DNA from: Rhodocytophaga rosea
Lineage (GTDB): Bacteria; Bacteroidota; Bacteroidia; Cytophagales; 172606-1
NCBI RefSeq assembly: GCF_010119975.1
Contig: NZ_CP048222.1
Coordinates: forward strand, 4,854,501 to 4,918,500
Direction: 5' to 3'
Length of the DNA stretch: 64,000 nucleotides
Under the pieces are notes generated by a model that was not told the origin of the DNA, ran no database searches, and was given only the letters and a program-made list of their open reading frames with translations. Both the position numbers and the translations under genes were made by a program. This document shows, one piece after another, positions 2,992 through 56,527 of this stretch. Position 1 is the first letter of the stretch, and every line of letters starts with the position of its first letter.

Positions 2992-4482
2992 ATGAATAGC
3001 ACACAAAGCAATGGCAGATTTTTGAATAATACCCGGCTGTTATTTGTAGGGCTGCTTATATCTGCCTGCACCCATTCCTTTGAAGACATAAATACCAATT
3101 CCAATAACCCTTCGACTGTATTACCAAAACAGCTCTTAGCCGGTATCCAGCGGGACATGATGCATACCCTGGTGAATGAATCCTGGGTGATTGGCACAAC
3201 GGTGATTCAGTATACGGCTAAAAATACAACTACCCTGGTTGACCGCTATATATGGGGTGAACGGAACCAGATCTGGGATGCAGTATACGATAATATGCGG
3301 GATGTAAACAATATATTAAAGCAAACCAGTGAAGGAAAAGAGAACAATTACCGGGGTGTTGCCTTGGTGTTACGGGCATGGCTATTTTCTCTGGTAACGG
3401 ATTGTTATGGCGATATTCCTTATACAGAAGCGATTCAAGGCAAAGAAGGTATACTATCGCCCGCTTACGACAGGCAGGAAACTATTTATGAAGGTATATT
3501 GACTGATCTGGCAGAAGCTAACCGGTTATTATCAGATGCAGCCAATATTGAAAATGATTTTATCTATGGCGGAGATATAAACAAATGGAGAAAACTGGCC
3601 AATTCCTTGCGCCTGCGTTATTTACTGCGTATTTCTGGCCGCAAAGAGGTAGGAGCAGAGATGCAGCAAATCGTAGCAAACCCGGCAGAATATCCCTTGT
3701 TTGAAAGCAATGTTGACAATGCTTCTTATACTTTTTCTGCCACGGCTCCTGACCAGTTTCCTTTGCTTGCGCTGAGAATAGGCTCATTCAACGAATCCAG
3801 AGCAAGCAAAACCCTAATCGATAAACTTCAGCAATTACAGGACCCCAGGCTAAAAGTTTTCTTTCGGCCTACTCCTTCAACAGAAGCCACTCCATCCACA
3901 GACGATGAATATACAGGGATTCCGAATGGATTAACAGATGTAGAAGCCATCCGCTATAATGGAGGCCCTGATTTTCAATCACGTATCAGCCCATTGTTTT
4001 ATGAGCAATCCATTACTGACAAAGGTTTACAGATAGCCAAAGGATTTATGATGACGTATGCCGAACTACAGTTTATTCTGGCAGAAGCAGCCCAGCGAAA
4101 AATTATTATCTCCAGTCCTGAAACACATTACAAAAATGGTATTCAGGCATCGTTTCAATTTTATGGGAAACAAGTTGAGGAAGCTTATTTTTTGCAAAAT
4201 GAAGTGATGTTTGAAGGGACAGATATACAAAAACTAGAGAAAGTACTCACGCAGAAATGGATTTCCCAGTTTTTTCAGGGGTTTGAAGCGTGGTTTGACT
4301 GGCGGCGTACCGGATTTCCTAGCTTAAAACCTGGTGTACATAATGAGAACGCAAATAAAATTCCAGTCCGGTTTATATACCCCATCATAGAACAATCATT
4401 AAATGCAAAAAACCGTGCTGATGCTATTCTGCTGCAAGGTCCGGATGACATCAATACTAGGGTCTGGTGGGATATAGAGTAA
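2992..4482 (+). CDS. SusD/RagB-family substrate-binding outer-membrane lipoprotein
   Basis: This is the partner of the preceding SusC. A GTG at 2968 overlaps the SusC stop, but the ATG at 2992 is preferred because it gives a short basic N-terminus, a hydrophobic stretch and the lipobox LISAC with the lipidated Cys near residue 26. The mature protein (about 470 residues) has the helical TPR-like SusD pattern, including a DxYGDIPYTEA segment and a C-terminal QGFEAWFDWRRTGFP segment that are typical of the SusD-like group. It would sit on the outer face of the outer membrane and close over the SusC barrel. Length (497 aa) is normal for the family. The ligand is unknown. Confidence 0.93.
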   Translation: MNSTQSNGRFLNNTRLLFVGLLISACTHSFEDINTNSNNPSTVLPKQLLAGIQRDMMHTLVNESWVIGTTVIQYTAKNTTTLVDRYIWGERNQIWDAVYDNMRDVNNILKQTSEGKENNYRGVALVLRAWLFSLVTDCYGDIPYTEAIQGKEGILSPAYDRQETIYEGILTDLAEANRLLSDAANIENDFIYGGDINKWRKLANSLRLRYLLRISGRKEVGAEMQQIVANPAEYPLFESNVDNASYTFSATAPDQFPLLALRIGSFNESRASKTLIDKLQQLQDPRLKVFFRPTPSTEATPSTDDEYTGIPNGLTDVEAIRYNGGPDFQSRISPLFYEQSITDKGLQIAKGFMMTYAELQFILAEAAQRKIIISSPETHYKNGIQASFQFYGKQVEEAYFLQNEVMFEGTDIQKLEKVLTQKWISQFFQGFEAWFDWRRTGFPSLKPGVHNENANKIPVRFIYPIIEQSLNAKNRADAILLQGPDDINTRVWWDIE

Positions 4483-5181
4483 GAGCAGGAATTTGTATTC
4501 GTTTTTTAGACTGGTAATTAAATAATTTTTGTAAAATAATTTATATTAAGGTAGGGTATAATACCCCTTACCTGACAATAATATATAGGACAGAATAAAA
4601 TGTAAGCTTTCCGTCTTATCATAAAACATGTAATGATTTTCTACCATGATCTTGCCTGATACCTTTTCGGTTCGTTACCCCTGAGTGCTGATTTTTAAAT
4701 TTAGCCTTAGGCGAACTCTTTTAGCTTTAACTCATCTTACTCTTTACTCATTAACCTTTGCTTTAATGAAAAATATAAAATGAATTCCTTTGTCTTATTT
4801 AACTGTGTGTACATACCCATAGTTAAAATAATTTTCAGTGGATCTGTAATCATTGGTTTTTCATACAAGTATTGAAATATCACATAGTTACATAATTAAA
4901 AATGCCGATATGCGTATACTTAGTTATATGATGAATTAAATAAGGCCTGCATACATATCTTATTAATATTTTAGGAGAGTAGGCATAAAATAATAGAAGC
5001 CTTTTGCAGAAGGTGATTTAATAGCAGATCTATATGTGTGTATGTACACATAGTTTTTAAAAGATGAAAATGCAGTTTTGATTCCATTATATAAGTTGCC
5101 TGATCACGTAAAGCAGAGGCATCTTTCACCACAATAAAAAATAATTCAAGTTGTATTTATAAACTATTAGCTTTTACCACA
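4483..5181. other. Non-coding spacer, about 700 bp
   Basis: Strongly AT-rich and without a credible ORF on either strand. A short imperfect palindrome (TATGTGT...ACACATA) lies near 5033-5052, and a related TGTGTGTACATA string is near 4806. These could be regulator sites for the LuxR-type gene downstream, but nothing proves it. No convincing terminator hairpin follows the SusD gene. Confidence 0.4.
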
Positions 5182-5931
5182 ATGCTCCAATCAAGACTTT
5201 TTACTTCTGAATTTTTGGGTCAGATACCTGCCAGAGAAATATCCATTCACAAACAATCAGCAGCTGAAGGGCTAGGGCTCCAGATGATTGAGCGGCTTTT
5301 TCATCCCTGTGTAATTGTGTTACAGGATAAATATATGAATGTATCCTACCTGAGCGAAAACAGCCTTCATCTGTTTGGGTATGGAATCGATGATTTAAAG
5401 AATACCGTTTTTAGAAATACGGCGAATTATCTGCCTGCAGAAGATAAAGAACTTTTCTTGCGGGCCAGGCAAAAAATAGATGAATTTTCCAGAACCATTC
5501 GCCAGCGTGAAATACAGGAACACCGGTTTGTAATGAATTATCGATTCCGCAGAGGTGATGGCAAATATATTCACCTGATGGAAGAAAGAATAAGTATTGC
5601 CGATCCTACAGGCAAGTATTCCTATTTTCTTCTTTTTAAAGATATATCCGCTGAAAAACCTTTTATGCGGGTTCATCTGCAATGGCTGAAATATCAGAAT
5701 GGAGCGTATACCAAAATCAATTCGTATGTGCCGGCTGTGGATGAATCCAATTTTTCGCAACGGGAAATTGAGGTTCTTCAATTAATTAAAGAAGGGTTCA
5801 GCAGCAAAGAAATAGCGGATACTTTATCTATCAGCATCAATACCGTACGAAACCACCGCAGCAACCTTTTTAAAAAATCCCATGCCAGAAACATGGTTGA
5901 ACTGCTTAACTATGCAGCTTCTGTCGCATAG
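5182..5931 (+). CDS. PAS-domain LuxR-type transcriptional regulator
   Basis: 249 aa. Residues about 40-160 form a PAS-like sensor with the PAC-type ending YRFRRGDGKYIHLMEERI...YSYFLLFKDIS. Residues about 190-249 are a LuxR/GerE helix-turn-helix (FSQREIEVLQLIKEG, SSKEIADTLSISINTVRNH). There is no receiver domain, so it probably responds directly to a small ligand or redox signal through PAS rather than to phosphorylation. PAS-LuxR proteins of this layout are common in Cytophagales and Sphingobacteria. It stands alone between two spacers of 700 and 300 bp, so its targets cannot be inferred from an operon. Confidence 0.85.
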   Translation: MLQSRLFTSEFLGQIPAREISIHKQSAAEGLGLQMIERLFHPCVIVLQDKYMNVSYLSENSLHLFGYGIDDLKNTVFRNTANYLPAEDKELFLRARQKIDEFSRTIRQREIQEHRFVMNYRFRRGDGKYIHLMEERISIADPTGKYSYFLLFKDISAEKPFMRVHLQWLKYQNGAYTKINSYVPAVDESNFSQREIEVLQLIKEGFSSKEIADTLSISINTVRNHRSNLFKKSHARNMVELLNYAASVA

Positions 5932-6232
5932 CATACCAATTGTGGCCTTGTTTCGGTAAACTGAGCGGTAAGTTAAGCGCTAATTTTGTAAGCACCCCCT
6001 ACATTAATGGCAACAATTATCAGGCAATTTATTTAACTGCCTGTTTAATTTTACTCAAAGGATAAGCCGTATATTTTTAGGTAAGGTTTGAAATTTAATC
6101 CAGTTATGGAATATAACATACCACTTATCTGAATAAACCTGCCAGATATGCAGTGGCCATTCAATGGAATAGTTTATTTGTGCATCTTTCATCTATACAT
6201 CCTTCATTCCACACAAAACTTAATAAAACCAT
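5932..6232. other. Non-coding spacer, about 300 bp
   Basis: No ORF, RNA gene or strong hairpin seen. It presumably carries the promoter of the lipoprotein gene that follows, but no clear Bacteroidota -33/-7 pair was found. Confidence 0.3.
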
Positions 6233-6898
6233 ATGAAACGCACTTTATTTTTTTTATTTATTCTTTTGCTGGCAATAACCTGGAGCTGCCAAACAGAGAG
6301 TGATTTTTCTTCTTCCCCGCCTCAGCCCGAATTCTCTTCCACCCAGGAAGTTTCATCTCGTAGCCAGCAAACTATTAGTTCACAAATGCTAAATAATGTA
6401 GCCGTAGATGTAATTAATTTAAATTTTGGGCAGGAATTCTATCCTATTACCCTTACCCAAATAAAAGGGGTAAGTCAGCAGCAATTTACCCAATGGTTGC
6501 AGAGTAGTGCTATAGCCTCTGCCCATCAGGGTTTACTTCCTGTATTGGCCAATACAGCTACAGAATATATTATCATCTCTAATGTTACAGTACGGGCTAC
6601 CGGTAAACAAACAACGGTGGCCATGATTGGTGTCCCATCTCAGCTCACAGGCCAGTATGCGGAGGCGATCATCCTGGAGGAAAAATCAAATATCCCGGCT
6701 TCAATGCAATTGAAAATCTGTATCTGGAAAAAATGTACCCCTTACGCTAAATGTGTTACCCGGATCAGACCTTTTCCTGCCAATGTTGCCTGCCCTACTG
6801 ATCAATGCAATGTAAATAATCCCTGCGTAATGTATGCTGTACCTCCTGGTACCACCATCGGATTAGCCTCTTTACGAAGTGCAATAGCCGCATTTTAA
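6233..6898 (+). CDS. Hypothetical lipoprotein with cysteine-rich C-terminus
   Basis: 221 aa. The N-terminus MKRTLFFLFILLLAITWSC is a lipoprotein signal with the lipidated Cys at residue 19. It is followed by a Ser/Gln-rich linker of about 30 residues and a globular region. Residues about 160-205 hold seven cysteines (CIWKKC, KCVTR, ACPTDQC, NPC), which suggests disulfides or metal binding in the periplasm or on the cell surface. I do not recognise the family. It stands alone, with the sensor kinase genes about 490 bp downstream. Confidence 0.7.
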   Translation: MKRTLFFLFILLLAITWSCQTESDFSSSPPQPEFSSTQEVSSRSQQTISSQMLNNVAVDVINLNFGQEFYPITLTQIKGVSQQQFTQWLQSSAIASAHQGLLPVLANTATEYIIISNVTVRATGKQTTVAMIGVPSQLTGQYAEAIILEEKSNIPASMQLKICIWKKCTPYAKCVTRIRPFPANVACPTDQCNVNNPCVMYAVPPGTTIGLASLRSAIAAF

Positions 6899-7390
6899 TT
6901 ACTGCCATTATTATACCATAGAAATATACCTTAAGGAAACTATACTCAATTAATCAACATCGCGTCTGTAATTGGCTCAAACACAAAATCAACTCTATTT
7001 TAATCAGGAAAAGAATATAATGCTGCAAATATATTCTGTTCCTGATGCTTTACTTTTAAAATCAGCTTCCTGTCACTCTTTTATATTTATATGGTCTCAA
7101 GCTATCCTTCCATTGAGATTCTCCTTTTATTTCCTGCTCAGAAAACCTGCATGTTTAACAGGAAATATGGCTTGTGCAGCTAATAAACATTGCTCCCATT
7201 TTTCGATACAGATTTTCGCATGGAACCAAAAAATGCATCGTGTACATCCTTCCATTATTACGCTGAGTATACCTGCCAGTAATAGTAACAGATGATACAA
7301 TTTCTTTGCTTTTCCTTTCGGAATGAGTAGCTTTATATAAGCTACCACTCAATAAAACAGGTTTTATAATTTCATTTTTACAGTACAGCT
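6899..7390. other. Non-coding spacer, about 490 bp
   Basis: Contains short frames on both strands, the longest about 107 codons from a TTG, but none resembles a protein and their composition is like the flanking AT-rich DNA. No RNA gene or clear hairpin was recognised. Confidence 0.35.
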
Positions 7391-9454
7391 ATGGGCTCCC
7401 TCACCTCTGTTCTACCCCTGATTCTGCTGTTGATGTTGTTTGCCTCTTCCCTCCATGGTCAATCGGTACGTGAGAAACCAAAACCAACCAAAGCAGCCAA
7501 ACAGGTTCCCGGAATGGCACAGGTATATGTGGATAGTTTGCAGGCTGTTTTACAAGCTACGCCGGACAAAGCTGATAAGATTGAACTGTATGGACTCCTG
7601 TTTTTTACATACGCCAGTACAGTAGGTAACCTGGAAGTGGCCCGCCAGTATGCAGATACGATAAAACGAGTGGCCACTCAGGTAAATACGAAAGATGCCT
7701 TGGCATATGTTAACTATTATCTTGGCATGCTGGCCCGTTTTGATGGAAAATATACAGAAGCCCTCAACTATTTAAATCCCATCATAGAGTATTGCAATAC
7801 TACCGGGAATTCCTCCCTGTTGGCTGATTGCTTATTTCAAACGGCCGTAATAGAAAATGAACTGGGCAACTATGATAAAAGTCTTGAAATTAGTTATGGT
7901 GCTTTTGAGCTTTTCGAAAAGGAAAGAATACACTTTGGTGTAGCCAGGGTAGCGATGAATGTAGGCAATTTGTTTACATCTATGAAAAAGTGGGAGGATG
8001 CTATTTCGATGTATAATAAATCCCTGGCCAGTTTTACCAGCATGAAACAGGATATCAATTCAAAAATGGGTGAGCTGAGGGTAATGATCAATATGGGGAA
8101 TGCGTATGCACAGATGAAACAATATGAAAAAGCCAGAACGCATTACAAACAAGCCTTGCTGCTTAGCGATTCTATTGGCTCAACCCGGACAGCAGCTACC
8201 ATTCTCAGTAATATGGGGGAAGTATTAAGTGCCGAGGGAAAATATGACAGCGCCCTGCAATATCATCTTCAGGCTTTACGCATCCGCGAACAGGCTTCTC
8301 AGATGGATAAGATCGCATTAAATCTACTATGGGTGGGTGACACTTATATGTTGCTGAAAAATTATGCTCAGGCCCAACATTATCTCCAGAAAGCGCTTTC
8401 GGTATCAAAAGAATTTCATGCCAAACCTGCCTTGCGCGATAGTTATAAGAAACTTTCTGCCTTATATGCGGCTCAGCAAAATTTCCAGAAAGCCTTTGAG
8501 TACCAGGGGCTATTTACTGCCATGAAAGATAGTATACTGAATGAAGAAACTACCCGACAGCTGAGTGAACTGCAAACCAAATATGAAATAGGCGAAAAAG
8601 ACAAACAACTCGCCCTTTTTGCCAAGGAGAAACAGGTGCAGCAAAAAGAAGTGCAGCGGAAAGTGCTGCAGCAAAAAGCCCTGATTGGCGGCCTGCTTCT
8701 GGTAACAGTTATTGCCGGGTTGGTTATTTATTTACTTCGCCAGAGAATGAGGAACCAGAAATTATTGATGGCAAAAGACCAGGAAATCAAAGAAACCCAG
8801 CTCCTGCACCAGATGAGTGCACTGGAAATGAAAGCCTTACGGGCACAGATGAATCCTCATTTCATTTTTAACTGCATGAATTCCATCAACCGCATGATTC
8901 TGGAACAGGATACGGCTGGTGCTTCCAGGTACCTGACTAAGCTTTCGAAATTAATCCGGCTTATCCTGGAAAATTCGGAAAACACGTCTGTCTCCCTACA
9001 GAATGAACTAATCATGCTGGAAGCGTATCTCCAACTGGAGAATCTGCGGTTTAAAGGCAGGATCGGATATAAAATCAGCGTAGATGAGGCAATAGACCAG
9101 GAAAATACATTTTTACCCTCGATGGTATTACAACCCTTTGTAGAAAATGCGATCTGGCATGGCTTAATGCACAAAGAAAAAGAGGAACAGGGATTTATAC
9201 ATATCAGCATTAAAGAAACAGAAGACGTGCTCAGGTGTGTGATTGAAGATAATGGCGTGGGCAGGGAAATAGCTACTGCGTTAAAGAAAAATTCGGTGGT
9301 TCACAGTAAATCCATGGGATTGCATATTACCGAAGAGCGTCTGAGGCTGTACAATAAGGGAAAAACCGGCCAGTTGATTCAAATTACTGACCTGAAAGAT
9401 TCTATGAACCGGGCTTTAGGTACCAGGGTAGATCTTCTGGTTCCCTTAGAATAA
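7391..9454 (+). CDS. TPR-containing LytS-type sensor histidine kinase
   Basis: 687 aa. A signal peptide (cut after SSLHGQ, about residue 24) leads into a periplasmic sensor of tandem TPR repeats, residues about 50-390, with repeated forms of the YxKAxxYYxxAL type. A coiled coil rich in K/Q/E follows, then one membrane segment (about 430-452) and a cytoplasmic HisKA_LytS domain with ALRAQMNPHFIFNCMNSI (phosphoacceptor His490). The ATPase part has the N-box LQPFVENAIWHGL and EDNGVGRE. The family normally pairs with a LytTR response regulator encoded just downstream. Here only a decayed start of one is visible (9451-9510), so the partner must be elsewhere. The protein at 9828 is a close paralogue. 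Confidence 0.92.
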   Translation: MGSLTSVLPLILLLMLFASSLHGQSVREKPKPTKAAKQVPGMAQVYVDSLQAVLQATPDKADKIELYGLLFFTYASTVGNLEVARQYADTIKRVATQVNTKDALAYVNYYLGMLARFDGKYTEALNYLNPIIEYCNTTGNSSLLADCLFQTAVIENELGNYDKSLEISYGAFELFEKERIHFGVARVAMNVGNLFTSMKKWEDAISMYNKSLASFTSMKQDINSKMGELRVMINMGNAYAQMKQYEKARTHYKQALLLSDSIGSTRTAATILSNMGEVLSAEGKYDSALQYHLQALRIREQASQMDKIALNLLWVGDTYMLLKNYAQAQHYLQKALSVSKEFHAKPALRDSYKKLSALYAAQQNFQKAFEYQGLFTAMKDSILNEETTRQLSELQTKYEIGEKDKQLALFAKEKQVQQKEVQRKVLQQKALIGGLLLVTVIAGLVIYLLRQRMRNQKLLMAKDQEIKETQLLHQMSALEMKALRAQMNPHFIFNCMNSINRMILEQDTAGASRYLTKLSKLIRLILENSENTSVSLQNELIMLEAYLQLENLRFKGRIGYKISVDEAIDQENTFLPSMVLQPFVENAIWHGLMHKEKEEQGFIHISIKETEDVLRCVIEDNGVGREIATALKKNSVVHSKSMGLHITEERLRLYNKGKTGQLIQITDLKDSMNRALGTRVDLLVPLE

Positions 9455-42166: not shown

Positions 42167-42805
42167 ATGTCAGTAGCCATAATCGATTATAAGATGGGAA
42201 ATGTTGCTTCTGTACAGAAAGCACTCAGCTATCTTAAAATGCCCAGTGTAATCACCAGCGATTTCGACCAGATACGCCAGGCTGATTTTATTGTGCTTCC
42301 GGGGGTAGGTTCCTTCGAAAAAGGAATGCAGAATTTACACGAAGCAGGCTTAACTACTTTGCTCACCGAAGAAGTTATTCAGAATAAAAAGCCATTTATA
42401 GGCATGTGCCTGGGAATGCAACTGATTGCTACCACCGGGTATGAACCTGCAAAAACACCTGGCTTAGGCTGGATTGATGGAGAAGTGGTCAGAATTGTAG
42501 CGCCGGGCAAAAGAATACCACATATGGGTTGGAATAATATTCACATCAAAGACGATACTTATTTCAAAGACATACCCGGCTCAGATTTTTATTTTATCCA
42601 TAGTTATCATTTTGAGGTTCGGGATGAAAGTGCTGTTTCATCAATTGTAGAGTATGGCATACCTATCACAGCGACTGTTCAAAAAGACAATATTTTTGCT
42701 GCCCAGTTCCATCCCGAAAAAAGCCAGAAAGCCGGATTGGCAGTTCTGAAAAATTTCTTTCACATACATGCTCAAAATAAGAGTTATACCCATATTAACA
42801 TTTAA
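42167..42805 (+). CDS. hisH: HisH-type glutamine amidotransferase subunit of the sugar amidotransferase
   Basis: 212 aa. Class I glutaminase with IDYKMGNVASVQKALSYL, VLPGVGSFEKGM, the nucleophile in GMCLGMQL (Cys81), an ISYHFEV-like HSYHFEVRD and the catalytic HPEKS. It releases ammonia from glutamine. No other his genes surround it, so it serves the neighbouring PseA/WbpG enzyme rather than histidine synthesis. Its end overlaps the start of hisF by 38 bp. Confidence 0.93.
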   Translation: MSVAIIDYKMGNVASVQKALSYLKMPSVITSDFDQIRQADFIVLPGVGSFEKGMQNLHEAGLTTLLTEEVIQNKKPFIGMCLGMQLIATTGYEPAKTPGLGWIDGEVVRIVAPGKRIPHMGWNNIHIKDDTYFKDIPGSDFYFIHSYHFEVRDESAVSSIVEYGIPITATVQKDNIFAAQFHPEKSQKAGLAVLKNFFHIHAQNKSYTHINI

Positions 42806-43519
42806 TGGATTTGCCCTGGTAAAAACCAAACAATTTGCCAATCCCAGAATGGTAGGCAATGCTGTGCAAGCCGCCAGGGTATACAATAGCAGGGGAGTAG
42901 ATGAGCTGGTTTTTCTGGATATTTTCGCCAGCGAACAAAACAGAAGATTAAATTTGTCTTTGGTGAAGGATATTATTAAAGAGTGCCTGATGCCCATAGG
43001 TATAGGCGGTGCAATCGCTTCACTGGAAGATATTAACAACTTACTCAAAATTGGAGCAGATAAGGTTATTATTAAAATGAAAGCATTAACCGACCCCGGT
43101 TTATTGAAGAGGCCGCCAATGTGTTCGGAAGCCAGTGTATTACAATCGCCGTAGATGCCAAAAGGCAAGGCGAAGACTATAAAATATATAATAAGCTTGG
43201 TATTGATGTTTCTTTATCTGATTTTATTAAACAGTGTGCTGATAGGGGAGCAGGCGAAGTTATTGTAAATTCTGTAGATAATGACGGAATGATGAATGGA
43301 TTTGACCTGGAATTAATTAAAAAAGCCGAACAACTGACTTCCCTGCCGATTATTGCCTGCGGTGGCGGTGGAAATCCCACACACTATAGCCAGCTTTTCC
43401 AGGAAACATCTATCGAAGCAGTAGCTTCTGCCAGTATTTTTCATTTTACCCAGTACACCCCCAACGACATAAAACGTACCCTCGAAAGCCTGGGCAAACC
43501 AGTAAGAATTACAGCTTAA
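42768..43519 (+). pseudogene. hisF: HisF-type imidazole glycerol phosphate synthase subunit, frameshifted
   Basis: A single gene of about 250 codons (usual HisF length) in two frames, 42768-43154 and then to 43519. The TIM barrel shows RVIPILTFNGFALVKTKQF, ELVFLDIFAS, MPIGIGGAIASLEDI, ITIAVDAKR, VNSVDNDGMMNGFDLELI and IIACGGGG. At 43100-43102 the run TTT should be TTTT, so that DPGFIEEAANVFGSQ stays in frame. The typical HisF lysine region near the N-terminus reads LVKTKQF, as in the LPS-associated HisF copies, rather than the biosynthetic form. It would guide ammonia from HisH to the amidotransferase. Sequencing error is likely. Confidence 0.88.
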
Positions 43520-43527
43520 ATTTTATT

Positions 43528-44265
43528 ATGGCATTTTCTTCTCCGAAAGTAGGTATTATTTCACAAGCCCGGATGGGAAGCACCAGGCTTCCTGGCAAAA
43601 TTATGCTGGAGGCAAAAGGCAAAAAACTGTTACAATACCACCTGGAAAGATTACACTGGAGTGGGTATCCTGTTATTATTGCTACTACTACACTTTCGCA
43701 AGATGATATTATTGTAGAATTTTGTCTGCAACACAATATTCCCTACTACCGGGGGGATGAAGAAAATGTATTGAGCAGGTTTTATCTATGTGCAAAGCAG
43801 TTTAAGCTCGATATTATTATAAGAGTTACTTCCGATTGCCCTCTCATCGATGGACTGTTAATTAAGCAAGCTGTAGAAGAATATATCGCTATAGGCGAAG
43901 AAAATGTATATGCCTCTAATTGCCTGGTCAGGTCATACCCTAGAGGCTTCGATTTTGAAATATTTTCCTTTGCGTTACTGAAAGAAGCCTACACACAGGC
44001 ATCCTTGCCTGCACAGAAAGAGCACGTTACTCCTTATTTATATCAAAATACTTCAGGTAACATAGTGATCAGGCATTTTGTAAATGACCAGGATGCCAGT
44101 AGGTTTAGAATTACATTAGATACACCTGAAGATTACAAATTGATACTTGAGCTAATAGAAACGTATTATGCTGAAACTTTGTATGCGGCAGAAATAATCA
44201 AACTATTAGCAGACCATCCAGAACTCTCCCTTATCAATGCACATATTGAGCAGAAGAAAATTTAA
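43528..44265 (+). CDS. pseF: SpsF/PseF-type cytidylyltransferase (CMP-nonulosonate synthesis)
   Basis: 245 aa of the SpsF (COG1861) kind. It would activate pseudaminic acid with CTP. The N-terminal nucleotide-binding motif is present as ISQARMGSTRLPGKIML, then YRGDEENVLSRFYLC, IIRVTSDCPLID and a C-terminal FRITLDTPEDYKLIL. It is 8 bp after hisF in the operon. A diverged second copy of its last 165 bases lies at 48168-48335, and pseG, which often follows pseF directly or is fused to it, is 7.3 kb away because of an inserted block. Confidence 0.88.
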   Translation: MAFSSPKVGIISQARMGSTRLPGKIMLEAKGKKLLQYHLERLHWSGYPVIIATTTLSQDDIIVEFCLQHNIPYYRGDEENVLSRFYLCAKQFKLDIIIRVTSDCPLIDGLLIKQAVEEYIAIGEENVYASNCLVRSYPRGFDFEIFSFALLKEAYTQASLPAQKEHVTPYLYQNTSGNIVIRHFVNDQDASRFRITLDTPEDYKLILELIETYYAETLYAAEIIKLLADHPELSLINAHIEQKKI

Positions 44266-44283
44266 CTATAAAATACTTTGCTA

Positions 44284-48167: not shown

Positions 48168-48335
48168 CAAGAGGCAAGTAGATTCTTTAAATACCTTGAA
48201 GATTACCGGCTCATACATGAATTAATAGAAACCCATCATGCTGAAACCTTGCAGGCAGCAGCTATAATCAAACTTTTGAAAGCTTATCTGGAACTCTCTC
48301 TTATGAGTGCACATATTGAGCAGAAGAAAATTTAA
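48168..48335 (+). pseudogene. Duplicate, diverged 3' end of the pseF gene
   Basis: Read in frame, this stretch gives KQEASRFFKYLEDYRLIHELIET, then HHAETLQAAAIIKLLKAYLELSL and SAHIEQKKI-stop. It lines up with the last 55 codons of the pseF gene at 44265 (QDASRF..., EDYKLILELIE, AETLYAAEIIKLLA, AHIEQKKI). The last 28 bases are identical in both, and earlier parts differ at roughly one base in four. There is no start codon. It lies at the far border of the MBOAT/AlgJ block, so the block (about 44266-48167) is flanked by two copies of the same gene end. Confidence 0.85.
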
Positions 48336-48647
48336 ATTAAAACGAAAAAATACTTATACTGCGAACTTTTTAGTACACGCCAAATATTTATATCGTTTTA
48401 ATAGCTCATTTATATAACCCGCATATCTAAATTTGGCTTCAATAGTGATATATGAAAAGCATTCGATAAGTGATATATATTAATCATTCTATATACACCT
48501 TCTTATTTTCTATTTCCAGTATTTTTTATACTAATCATTATTTTATCTTTTTGATAATCAGAACGATTCTGTATTATCGTACGTATTGGTATACACTTTT
48601 TGTACAATTACTTTCAACCAAGCACTTTATTCATTTTGTAATTGCCA
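48336..48647. other. Non-coding spacer, about 310 bp
   Basis: AT-rich. ATTAAAACGA (48336-48345) and TCGTTTTAAT (about 48393-48402) form an inverted repeat with a 47-base gap. It is not a clear terminator. It separates the pseF remnant from the secreted propeller gene and presumably contains that gene's promoter. Confidence 0.35.
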
Positions 48648-51530
48648 ATGAAGAATCTTATTATTGTTTTTTACACACTATTACAACTACAAAGCATATT
48701 TTCCTATGGGCAACCTACCCAAGGCGCTCTATACTTCAATAAAACAGGCAGCTATATAAATATTCCTTCTTCTCCTTCATTAAGTCCGGAAAAAGAAATA
48801 ACAGTTGAGTCCTGGATTAAGCCTAATAATTCAAACTGGAACAATAAGTATCAAACTATACTCTCTAAAAAAGAATATAATGATCTCACAAGCTTTACTG
48901 ATAAACAAAAGTGGGAAGTTTATAATGCCACAAATGTAAATGGAGAAAACAATATTACGGGCTTTGTAGGCGCTGTTTTTGATGGGAGGTATGTGTATTT
49001 CAGTCCCTGGTGGAGAGGAGGTGATGAACCTCAATCCGGAGAAGTGCTGCGTTTTGATACACAGGGCGATTACCAGGATACAAATAGCTGGAATACTTAT
49101 AATGCTGATAATGAGGATGGTAAGAACGGTGTGCGCGGCTTGGAGGGTGCTGTTTTTGATGGAAGGTATATTTATTTTGTTCCTCTCCATACAGAAAATA
49201 TTTATTCCAGCCAGGTTTTGAGATACGATACACAAAAGGACTTTAATAGTACGAATTCATGGGATGTCTATGATTACACTACAAACAATGTTGCAGAAAT
49301 TGATGATAAGTATCAGGCACCCAAAGGCTTTGTAGGTGCTGTATTTGATGGAAAATATATCTACTTTCCGCCTAATCCCTGGGAGCCTCACCATAAGGTT
49401 TTAAGATACAATACACAAAGTGATTTTTTTGATTCCAGCTCCTGGGAAACATATGATTTTGCAGCTAAATATGGCCCTGAAGCCTTGGCAGGATGTTTCG
49501 GAGCTATTTTCGATGGAGCTTATGTGTATTTTGTTCCCCAGGATGGGAAAGGTAATGTACTCCGCCTGGATACCAGAAAAGAGTTTTCGGAAGATGATGC
49601 CTGGGAGATGTTTAATTTAATAGATTTACTACCTCCAGGGTATCCTCCCCATTTTGCAGGTGCTGTTTTTGATGGCCGGAATATCTATTTTTCGCCTTTG
49701 TATGGAGGCACTGTAATTAAGTTTGATACTAAAGGCGATTTTATGGATAAGCAATACTGGAAATTAACTTATATACTGAATTTAGATGGCAACCATGCTG
49801 TAAAGGGTGGAGTGGGACCAGTATTCGATGGCCGGTATGTTTATTATCCGCCCATGTATGATCAGGTTGGCAGATCGGGTAAATTTGTTATTTATGACAC
49901 CTACGGAGATTTTGAAGATTTAAGTTCCTGGAATTATTATGACTGGAAAACGCAGGATAAACAACTGGCCGGCTTTGAGGGAGCCGTTTTTGACGGGCAA
50001 TATGTATACTTTTCACCCATGAACTTTGAAGATCCGCATGGTAAAATATTACGTTATGGTTCTACAGAGAGAAATGGGCTAAGCTATTCACTGATCTATA
50101 ATCAGTCATCCAGTTCTTTTGGATCGGTCATGCAAAGGCCTAGTTTTCAGGTGGGTACAACAGCAGGGCTTCGTACAGTATACCTAAAGAAAGAAGCTAA
50201 CCTGGCAGATGGGGAGTGGCATCATATGGCAGGTACGTATAATGGCTCTGTGCTTAGTATATATCTTGATGGACAATTGAATAATCAGATTATATACACC
50301 ACACCTGCAGATATAGTAGTAAATGAGGCAAATGTTACAATTGGTTCAGAATCCGGGCATTCGAGTAGTTTTGATGGCTTAATTGATAATATCAGTATAA
50401 GAAATATAGCGGCAACAGCGGAGGAGATTCTTCAACATGCTAATTGCAGGGAATTTTCCGGAATCGATTCTCATTTGCTTGCTGGATGGCTGTTGGATGA
50501 AGGTAGAGGAGAGGTTGTAAATGATCTAAGCGGGAATAACAATAACGGTGTTTTAATAAATGAACCTAAATGGATTAATTTAAACACTGCTCTTAAGGTT
50601 TTTGCCGGGAAAGATGAAGAAGTTTGCAGCGATGACCTGCCATTTATATTGCAAGATTATTATCCTGCCGGAGGCGTATGGACTGGAAATGGCGTGAGTG
50701 CCAGTGGTTTATTTACTCCGTCTGAAAATTTTGCCAATACTACTCAAAAGCTGCTGTATACCTATCAGGATGAAAATGGCTGTGTATATTCTTCGTTCAA
50801 GAAAATTTATATAAGACCTTCAACCGGTCAGCCATATATATCTGAGCGTTTTAATGCCATTCTTTGCTCCGGGGAATTTACTACCCTCACAGTAGATAGA
50901 GACTATAGCCGATATATATGGTCTACAGGCGATACCACAAAAAGTATTCATGTCTCGCAGTCTGGTACATATAGTGTAAAAGTGGCTGAAGGTGATTCTT
51001 GCCTGAGTATATCTTCTGAGTCAGTTGCCATTCAGGTATTACCTGATATGCCTGCCCCGGTAATCAATTTAACGGATCTTACCAGTTTAAAAGCCAGTAA
51101 TGCGGCTGATAACTTACATTTTGAATGGAAACGCAACAATGACACGCTTCCTCTTCATACACAAACGATAAAAATTACGCAACCAGGCTTCTATTCGGCT
51201 CGAGTCAGAAATTCAAATAACTGCTATTCGGAGTTTTCCGAGGCGTTTTATTTCACTCCACCCCAGCCTGACGAGATACTGAATAAAAACCTTACCATTG
51301 CTCCTAATCCAAGCAATGGCAGATTTCAGATAAGTGTTTCTGATTTTACAGAAGATGTGTCTGTGTATATAAGAGATCAAACCGGTAAAATACTGTATCA
51401 GGCTGTATTACCCGTCCGGGAAGGGCTTACCATAAAAGAAATTAATTTAACACATTTGCCAAAGTCATTATACATGATGAGCTTTGTAACCAGCTATGGT
51501 GTATTACATAAAAAAATAATCATCCAATAG
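48648..51530 (+). CDS. Secreted protein with a seven-repeat propeller inside a LamG domain and a type IX secretion C-terminus
   Basis: 960 aa from ATG 48648 (MKNLIIVFYTLLQLQSIFSYG, signal peptide). Residues about 27-82 are the first half of a LamG/concanavalin domain (GALYFNKTGSYINI, ITVESWIKPNN). Seven repeats follow (about 85-470), each containing G.VGAVFDGRYVYFSP, then VLRYDT..DF and SSWNYY. After them the LamG fold resumes (about 471-600: GLSYSLIYNQ, LADGEWHHMAGTYNGSVLSIYLDG, DGLIDNISI). Next are Ig-like modules (about 650-870) and a type IX sorting domain (LTIAPNPSNGRF ... KKIIIQ). It is probably displayed on the cell surface and binds carbohydrate. It lies in the pse locus between the MBOAT block and pseG. 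Confidence 0.85.
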   Translation: MKNLIIVFYTLLQLQSIFSYGQPTQGALYFNKTGSYINIPSSPSLSPEKEITVESWIKPNNSNWNNKYQTILSKKEYNDLTSFTDKQKWEVYNATNVNGENNITGFVGAVFDGRYVYFSPWWRGGDEPQSGEVLRFDTQGDYQDTNSWNTYNADNEDGKNGVRGLEGAVFDGRYIYFVPLHTENIYSSQVLRYDTQKDFNSTNSWDVYDYTTNNVAEIDDKYQAPKGFVGAVFDGKYIYFPPNPWEPHHKVLRYNTQSDFFDSSSWETYDFAAKYGPEALAGCFGAIFDGAYVYFVPQDGKGNVLRLDTRKEFSEDDAWEMFNLIDLLPPGYPPHFAGAVFDGRNIYFSPLYGGTVIKFDTKGDFMDKQYWKLTYILNLDGNHAVKGGVGPVFDGRYVYYPPMYDQVGRSGKFVIYDTYGDFEDLSSWNYYDWKTQDKQLAGFEGAVFDGQYVYFSPMNFEDPHGKILRYGSTERNGLSYSLIYNQSSSSFGSVMQRPSFQVGTTAGLRTVYLKKEANLADGEWHHMAGTYNGSVLSIYLDGQLNNQIIYTTPADIVVNEANVTIGSESGHSSSFDGLIDNISIRNIAATAEEILQHANCREFSGIDSHLLAGWLLDEGRGEVVNDLSGNNNNGVLINEPKWINLNTALKVFAGKDEEVCSDDLPFILQDYYPAGGVWTGNGVSASGLFTPSENFANTTQKLLYTYQDENGCVYSSFKKIYIRPSTGQPYISERFNAILCSGEFTTLTVDRDYSRYIWSTGDTTKSIHVSQSGTYSVKVAEGDSCLSISSESVAIQVLPDMPAPVINLTDLTSLKASNAADNLHFEWKRNNDTLPLHTQTIKITQPGFYSARVRNSNNCYSEFSEAFYFTPPQPDEILNKNLTIAPNPSNGRFQISVSDFTEDVSVYIRDQTGKILYQAVLPVREGLTIKEINLTHLPKSLYMMSFVTSYGVLHKKIIIQ

Positions 51531-55474: not shown

Positions 55475-56527
55475 ATGAATAGCAGGTATTATCGTCATTC
55501 ACTCCTTTACATAGTTTATGTACTACTACTATGCTGCTGTAAAAAAGAGGAAGATAAGTATCTGTATGGTTATAATGCCTTTCCGGATATTTGCAGGCTG
55601 GCCGATGGACGTATTGCCTGCGTTTTTTACCAGGGGTATTCTCATACATCCCTGCCGGAACAAAATACAGCAGGATACATGGGAGGAAAGATTATGATCG
55701 CCTATTCAATGGATGAAGGTAGAAGCTGGTCTATACCGGAAGTGTTGATCGATACGCCTAATGATGACCGGGACCCTTCTATTACTCAATTATCTAACGG
55801 AGATATACTGGTTAACTATTTTATTGTTAACGGCGAGGGTTTTGAATCATATGGCTTATGGACTGTGCGTTCTACAGATGGAGGCCTCCGCTGGTCGCAG
55901 CCTAGTTTGTTGAGCCAGGATTATTTTGCTTCCTCGCCCATCCGGGAATTATCCAATAAAGAGTTAATACTCGGCCTTTATTCTTATGCGGAAAAGGGTG
56001 TGTACGGTGCCTCTGTCCGCTCCATTGATACCGGCAGAACATGGCAGCAGGCTGTCCGGATCAGAAATCTGCAAGACCTGGATTTTGATGCGGAAACTGA
56101 TATTGTAGAACTAAATAAAGACTCTTTGTATGCCGTATTGCGAACTAATGACCAGAATCGTAATATGCATTTTACTATTTCTACGGATCATGGGGCAAGC
56201 TGGCAGTTAAGCCAGGATATTGGTTTTCCCGGGCATTGCCCGTACTTGTATAAAGCTACAAATGGCGTTTTATTTCTGGCTTCCAGGATTCCAAATACCT
56301 GCATTCGCTATTCCAAAGATAATGGCAAAACGTGGAGTAAACCTTATCTTGTTGAAAATTCAATCGGAGCCTATCCCAGCATAATTCAATCGGTTGACGG
56401 CTCATTTTTAATCAGCTATTACGATGACTTTAATGAGTCGAGAAGGTCTGTAATAAAATTCAAAAGGTTTACTTTTACCGGTAATACGATATTGTTCAAT
56501 ACACAATTTTCCTCTCAACTGCGCTAA
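55475..56527 (+). CDS. Sialidase-like (BNR/Asp-box) lipoprotein
   Basis: 350 aa with a lipoprotein signal (VYVLLLCCCKK). The rest is a six-bladed-type propeller with five Asp-boxes of the SxDxGxxW form: SMDEGRSW, STDGGLRW, SIDTGRTW, STDHGASW and SKDNGKTW. This pattern belongs to exo-alpha-sialidases and related glycosidases. The FRIP-like arginine segment is not clear, so activity is uncertain. It sits in the pse operon between pseI and the flippase, 27 bp after pseI and with the flippase starting right after its stop. It would be an outer-surface or periplasmic enzyme, possibly acting on pseudaminic acid linkages. Confidence 0.75.
   Translation: MNSRYYRHSLLYIVYVLLLCCCKKEEDKYLYGYNAFPDICRLADGRIACVFYQGYSHTSLPEQNTAGYMGGKIMIAYSMDEGRSWSIPEVLIDTPNDDRDPSITQLSNGDILVNYFIVNGEGFESYGLWTVRSTDGGLRWSQPSLLSQDYFASSPIRELSNKELILGLYSYAEKGVYGASVRSIDTGRTWQQAVRIRNLQDLDFDAETDIVELNKDSLYAVLRTNDQNRNMHFTISTDHGASWQLSQDIGFPGHCPYLYKATNGVLFLASRIPNTCIRYSKDNGKTWSKPYLVENSIGAYPSIIQSVDGSFLISYYDDFNESRRSVIKFKRFTFTGNTILFNTQFSSQLR

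Follow-up and report, generated by a model that had tools for sequence, protein, structure and literature searches.

Domain layout of the LamG-propeller gene

The present study deals with one gene in a 64,000-nt stretch of the Rhodocytophaga rosea genome (GCF_010119975.1, NZ_CP048222.1, positions 4,854,501-4,918,500, forward strand), in the following called the window. The gene at 48648..51530 encodes a protein, here the window protein, whose LamG domain is predicted to carry a closed seven-bladed beta-propeller in one of its loops. The features of the gene, in window coordinates, are as follows.

48648..51530, + strand: LamG with inserted propeller, type IX-secreted protein, 960 residues from the ATG; precedes a pseG-like gene
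48648..48710, + strand: probable signal peptide, residues 1-21; hydrophobic N-terminus, judged by eye
48726..48893, + strand: LamG first half, residues 27-82; LamG profile positions 1-57, strands in the predicted model
48906..48929, + strand: strand closing blade seven, residues 87-94; model strand 68-72 corresponds to residues 89-93, repeat profile positions 30-49 match
48906..50060, + strand: inserted seven-bladed propeller (predicted), residues 87-471
48960..49136, + strand: repeat unit 1
49137..49325, + strand: repeat unit 2
49326..49490, + strand: repeat unit 3
49491..49655, + strand: repeat unit 4
49656..49805, + strand: repeat unit 5
49806..49970, + strand: repeat unit 6
49971..50060, + strand: repeat unit 7, three strands, the fourth supplied by residues 87-94
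50064..50435, + strand: LamG second half, residues 473-596; Pfam Laminin_G_3 at 497-594, LamG profile positions 63-167
50580..51287, + strand: Ig-like stretch; residues 756-799 match Ig_2 and Ig_7 weakly and below cut-off
51303..51524, + strand: type IX secretion sorting domain; PF18962 E 5e-8, TIGR04183 E 7e-8

The type A sorting domain (Por_Secre_tail of Pfam, residues 886-959) scores above the curated cut-offs of both collections (33.5 bits against 27 in Pfam, 32.3 against 23 in NCBIfam), in agreement with the original prediction that the protein is a type IX secretion cargo. The gene product is secreted and probably held at the cell surface. Tails resembling the Ig-like stretch occur in other proteins encoded by the R. 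rosea genome.

One LamG domain interrupted by a predicted closed propeller

A LamG profile was built from uninterrupted LamG domains of the R. rosea genome and of relatives (45 sequences in the last round, the window gene excluded). In the numbering of the 962-residue open reading frame (ORF), residues 29-84 correspond to profile positions 1-57 and residues 499-598 to positions 63-167. Laminin_G_3 also matches the protein in two stretches, one of them covering profile positions 55-150; the whole domain is matched in order along a discontinuous chain, with about 385 residues between positions 57 and 63. The break falls after the strand QTILSK and before YSLIY, which is a hairpin loop, and the insertion point is identical among the lineages compared. 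Comparable splits of the LamG profile occur in relatives, which are numbered as loci with an L (1-55 and 69-166 in L016; 2-58 and 65-155 as well as 2-56 and 48-155 in the two L043 proteins). The LamG sequence is interrupted and then resumed in order, as originally predicted, and the alignment made as a check on whether the halves belong to two different domains gave complementary ranges of one profile. Judging from these matches, the LamG of the window protein is an interrupted LamG domain.

The gap is filled by seven repeat units, as had been counted before, which begin at residues 105, 164, 227, 282, 337, 387 and 442; six of them have 50-63 residues and the seventh has 30 residues up to LamG. 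The blade has the core GxxGAVFDG and the signature RYDT...F...SW; the units are 36-49% identical to the first and keep six columns (G, F, D, G, Y, P) invariant in all seven. The repeat profile matches the ORF at E 3e-166, a value obtained with a profile built from these same repeats. In the predicted model, seven repeats of about four strands form a ring that is closed by the N- and C-terminal strands in one blade and not an open or separate array, while the DSSP assignment gives short or split first strands in blades 3 and 6. The insert lies inside LamG as proposed earlier, but its start had to be corrected to about residue 87, ahead of the first GxxGAVFDG core, because the strand QKWEVYNA there completes blade seven. 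Taken together, sequence and a confident predicted structure make it very probable that the propeller is closed, seven-bladed and nested in one LamG loop.

According to this model, the LamG jelly roll would carry the closed propeller in the hairpin loop after strand QTILSK, short linkers would hold it at both ends, and the last propeller strand would continue directly into the next LamG strand; therefore, both domains should move as one body.

Relatives of the nested propeller

When a genome contig collection, described as holding one genome for each of 84,980 species, was scanned with blade pairs, 148 relatives came up, and the 80 best of them (79 loci) were used further; viral contigs gave 6. 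The loci kept and the window together hold 94 repeat-bearing ORFs, counted after removal of L009, which is the same gene as L001. Single-protein searches with the whole propeller found no relative in the genome contigs, phages, plasmids or viral contigs, and against the 147 other relatives the whole propeller gave only one match (93 residues, E 1.7e-4). The stand-alone relative L030 as query found none in phages or plasmids, and the sole match in 394 other Bacteroidota genomes spans 33 residues (E 9e-4).

The LamG second half starts at most 60 residues after the last blade in 44 of the 94 ORFs, which answers the earlier question whether other proteins with the repeat also carry it inside LamG; the first half is detected by the profile in 23 of these 44 at a permissive E<5. 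By the 60-residue rule the remaining 50 ORFs are without an adjacent second half, and some are little more than a propeller (L030, 419 residues). Among these 50, L074 and one L034 piece show a LamG first half, L014 and L020 have a LamG match elsewhere, and some others stop at a contig edge. The LamG-bearing relatives are labelled as Latescibacterota, Gemmatimonadota, Planctomycetota, Lentisphaerota, Kiritimatiellota, Verrucomicrobiota, Nitrospirota, Chloroflexota, Acidobacteriota, Bdellovibrionota and others; they come almost exclusively from metagenome bins, and single labels may be wrong, for example that of the 5.4-kb Aenigmatarchaeota contig L011. The nested design, originally called unusual, is indeed very rare among the Bacteroidota searched but recurrent in other bacterial groups.

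Exactly seven cores were counted in 82/94 ORFs (41/44 of those with LamG), and seven units in 86/94 when partly matched units count. In four ORFs (L091, L078, and one each from L093 and L094) six cores are present, and of a seventh unit only the later part is matched. L036 shows eight matches, of which the first is short and set off by 70 residues; L034 and L079 each consist of two pieces with 4 and 3 cores, apparently frame-broken; the ORFs of L046 and L090 run into contig ends, and L074 has 4 cores without an obvious cut. The count of seven in L095 rests on matches of only 17-25 residues. As separate observations, a viral contig encodes three tandem stand-alone propeller genes (L093, 1460-5318), with near-identical copies of two of them in L094, and another (L090, 2-6029) ends in the end of a LamG-propeller followed by genes that look tail-fibre-like by eye, a possible transfer route.

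Mean blade identity within a protein has a median of 49% among 87 proteins and is 46% in the window protein. It reaches 90% in L045, 81% in the two L043 proteins and 75% in L011, which are all LamG-bearing and have all seven cores. At the DNA level L045 (6.6 copies, 5503-6590) and L011 (6.8 copies, 3107-4255) are tandem arrays with 84-88% matches, and the window propeller shows no such array. The protein at 98-3799 of L034 carries Kelch repeats in 300 residues between blades 2 and 3 of its LamG-inserted propeller and is, by its domain matches, a three-level nest of Kelch in propeller in LamG. The neighbouring L034 ORFs 3841-7290 and 7059-8237 resemble a similarly designed gene with a broken frame. 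It might be, although we regard this as rather unlikely, that the propeller in LamG is an old mobile module in which the LamG loop clamps the ring at seven, the blades are repeatedly wiped and re-amplified in place from one, and a second propeller can be hosted. If the clamp operates in this way, stand-alone members would be escapees from it. The proteins with 75-90% identical blades that still have seven represent natural cases of ring rebuilding and are useful for asking what fixes the blade number.

Setting in the pse locus

About 25 bases separate the end of the LamG-propeller gene from the pseG-like ORF, behind which come pseH-like, formyltransferase, PIG-L, pseI and BNR sialidase-like genes; pseB-, pseC- and pseF-like genes lie upstream. 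The pse names are based on Pfam families, gene order and recall, and no Pfam family scores above cut-off in the pseG-like protein. In 19 kb compared from a congener, the ends of the locus are conserved (PseB 87%, PseC 69%, PseI 81% identity), PseF, PseG and PseH are only 37-39% identical, and no LamG-propeller, MBOAT, AlgX-like, formyltransferase, PIG-L or BNR gene was found at E 1e-5. Conserved ends, a divergent middle and the absent LamG-propeller therefore indicate that the gene sits in the exchanged centre of a surface sugar locus of the pseudaminic acid type. Just upstream of it lies a broken copy of the pseF-like 3' end (48187-48342 against 44116-44273, 158 columns, 78% identical), with MBOAT and AlgX-like genes on the opposite strand between both copies; the duplication was probably left behind by a cassette exchange. 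The G+C content of the MBOAT and AlgX-like genes is 0.33, similarly low to that of the pseH-like and formyltransferase genes (0.34).

Two further observations were made in the window. The gene at 55475-56527, in the pse locus, has BNR sialidase-like repeats (BNR_2 E 3e-21) and, by eye, a lipoprotein-like N-terminus, making it a candidate nonulosonidase or binder. At 42768-43519, a HisF-like match (43121-43519) covers only the C-terminal half of the profile and is overlapped by an upstream ORF (42768-43154), perhaps due to a frameshift.

History and function of the nest

Both LamG flanks of the window protein have their nearest counterparts in those of L011, ahead of the fetched uninterrupted LamG domains, with L090 next for the second half; therefore, inheritance or transfer of the complete nest is probable. 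In the propeller tree the window propeller is likewise sister to L011 (support 99/92). It is reasonably likely that the nest was acquired ready-made as a module and not assembled in this genome. The propellers with LamG fall into more than one clade: 5 changes of the LamG label are required on the careful tree, calculated without seven rows (three of L093, two of L094, L092 and L034_3841), and 6 on a quick tree of 87 rows. A single LamG clade is rejected by the approximately unbiased test (p-AU 1e-64, careful tree). This pattern would fit several independent captures of the propeller by LamG at the same loop, a history that is compatible with our overall explanation. However, the propeller tree cannot separate gain from loss, and recurrence of the very same hairpin is accounted for more easily by a single old insertion with LamG losses or by exchange of propellers between LamG frames, which leaves repeated capture a minority possibility. 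One old insertion with later losses of LamG is the preferred history.

Sugars or proteins are common ligands of LamG domains and propellers, therefore a lectin or adhesin is the best guess for the function. The window protein might be such a surface binder, with the LamG or a propeller face contacting carbohydrate, a reading by analogy to which we give somewhat less than an even chance; that the ligand would be the nonulosonate-bearing glycan made by the same locus is doubtful. In this sense the window protein is a candidate surface binder in a nonulosonate locus.

An alternative is that the propeller is an enzyme akin to virginiamycin B lyase or sugar lactonases, to which LamG presents the substrate. 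The best fold match is indeed a lyase, and among 33 related LamG-propellers, single blades and the entry segment of LamG (D.GHNGG..NT) hold non-consensus residues that are conserved to at least 90%, as expected of a site for binding or catalysis. A tight group of Latescibacterota and Gemmatimonadota has an enolase-superfamily gene on one side of the LamG-propeller gene and a GFO/IDH oxidoreductase gene on the other, within about 15 bases by an ATG chosen by eye (L068); a sulfatase and a glycoside hydrolase family 5 (GH5) gene are nearby, a setting in which a sugar lactonase would fit. The L068 protein (4723-8619) is without an evident signal peptide, as are L058 and L063 of that lineage, again by eye. 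However, the asymmetric residues are largely not retained in the window protein, the gene context comes from near-identical relatives of about one lineage and differs in the upstream neighbours of L056, L063 and L082, and a shared propeller fold is uninformative on catalysis. An enzymatic role is improbable.

Less probable still, the window protein could be a carrier of the locus's sugar, that is, a glycosylated surface protein instead of a binder. Published work on Tannerella deals jointly with type IX secretion, O-glycosylation and nonulosonic acids (PMC8550257, PMC6388019). Against this, comparison with shuffles revealed no enrichment of glycosylation sites of the Tannerella motif D(S/T)(A/I/L/V/M/T), which may differ here: the window protein has 2 sites versus 3.0 expected, none of them in LamG or propeller. 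Finally, that the two LamG pieces are two different domains flanking a separate propeller is very improbable, since the weak first half in many relatives, the 17-position overlap in L011 (3-62 and 46-169) and the start of the second range at position 31 in L033 are countered by complementary ranges in the window protein, L016 and one L043 protein with only a small overlap in the other, by the shared loop, by one confident predicted model, and by the conservation of TV.AW..Q..W before the insert and of the LamG strands after it in at least 90% of 33 rows.

Collectively, a nested architecture acquired as a module in a candidate surface binder is likely the best explanation of the data. Several points weigh against it. 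The joined flanks of the window protein served to locate the three seeds of the LamG profile, which is therefore not fully independent of it; Pfam is independent. The structure comparison spans model residues 50-456, that is the propeller, with LamG outside. Furthermore, the window propeller stands on a long branch, 45% identical to its nearest relative, and it lacks most of the asymmetric residues conserved in the largest related group. The sugar link is drawn from domain types and locus, not from any ligand, residue or assay.

Comparison with known systems

For comparison with known families, a structure alignment of 58 members was used, consisting of 40 of the 44 ORFs with LamG and 18 of the 50 without (L034 pieces, L036 and L090 excluded). 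Pfam gave nothing over the window repeats and NCBIfam only the sorting domain in the whole protein, both at E<=1. The original statement that the blade has no obvious family name was thereby upheld; among the members only scattered generic matches were found, such as DUF1513, DUF5122 and Kelch in 2 each, which never cover the whole propeller in the 10 proteins with positions examined. PD40, the WD40-like repeat (PF07676), weakly matches 19/58 members at E<=0.01 (best 7e-5) but not the window protein, whose blade has its own signature. MAR_sialic_bdg (PF10564) matches 4/58 at the same threshold, with a summed 32 bits in L071 against a cut-off of 25.1; these stretches of about 32 residues, none passing alone and none in the window protein, were taken as chance repeat resemblance. 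TafC of NCBIfam matches 4/58 members (best 2e-10) and the window protein weakly, in the LamG second half. From PHROGs, 34 families touch the 58 members and cover only the LamG second half in the window protein; when 10 propeller regions, among them that of the window protein, were searched by themselves, 8 had no match at E 0.001 and 2 had short matches only. No published description of the propeller, the LamG insertion or the blade motif was found in titles and abstract openings, a sample mostly outside subscription journals.

The best fold match to the window propeller model is virginiamycin B lyase, also named streptogramin B lyase (PDB 2z2o, 2qc5); the identity is 13%, the lyase is not LamG-inserted, and the likeness is one of fold only. 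Laminin_G_3 (PF13385) matches the window protein and 38 further members (39/58, where 40/58 rows had entered with LamG), but the LamG of the window protein is broken by about 385 residues at one hairpin. Trypanosomal trans-sialidases combine a propeller and a LamG-like lectin domain in tandem, with six blades. They appeared among the top Foldseek rows (1ms5 and others), but the root-mean-square deviation of about 21 A and the template-modelling (TM) score of about 0.3 over both domains indicate a different arrangement. The propeller fold is thus known, and the new part is the repeat family, widespread and without a specific model or match in Pfam (2025), NCBIfam (2026) or PDB sequences, together with a recurrent nested architecture of a propeller in LamG and, once, of Kelch in a propeller in LamG.
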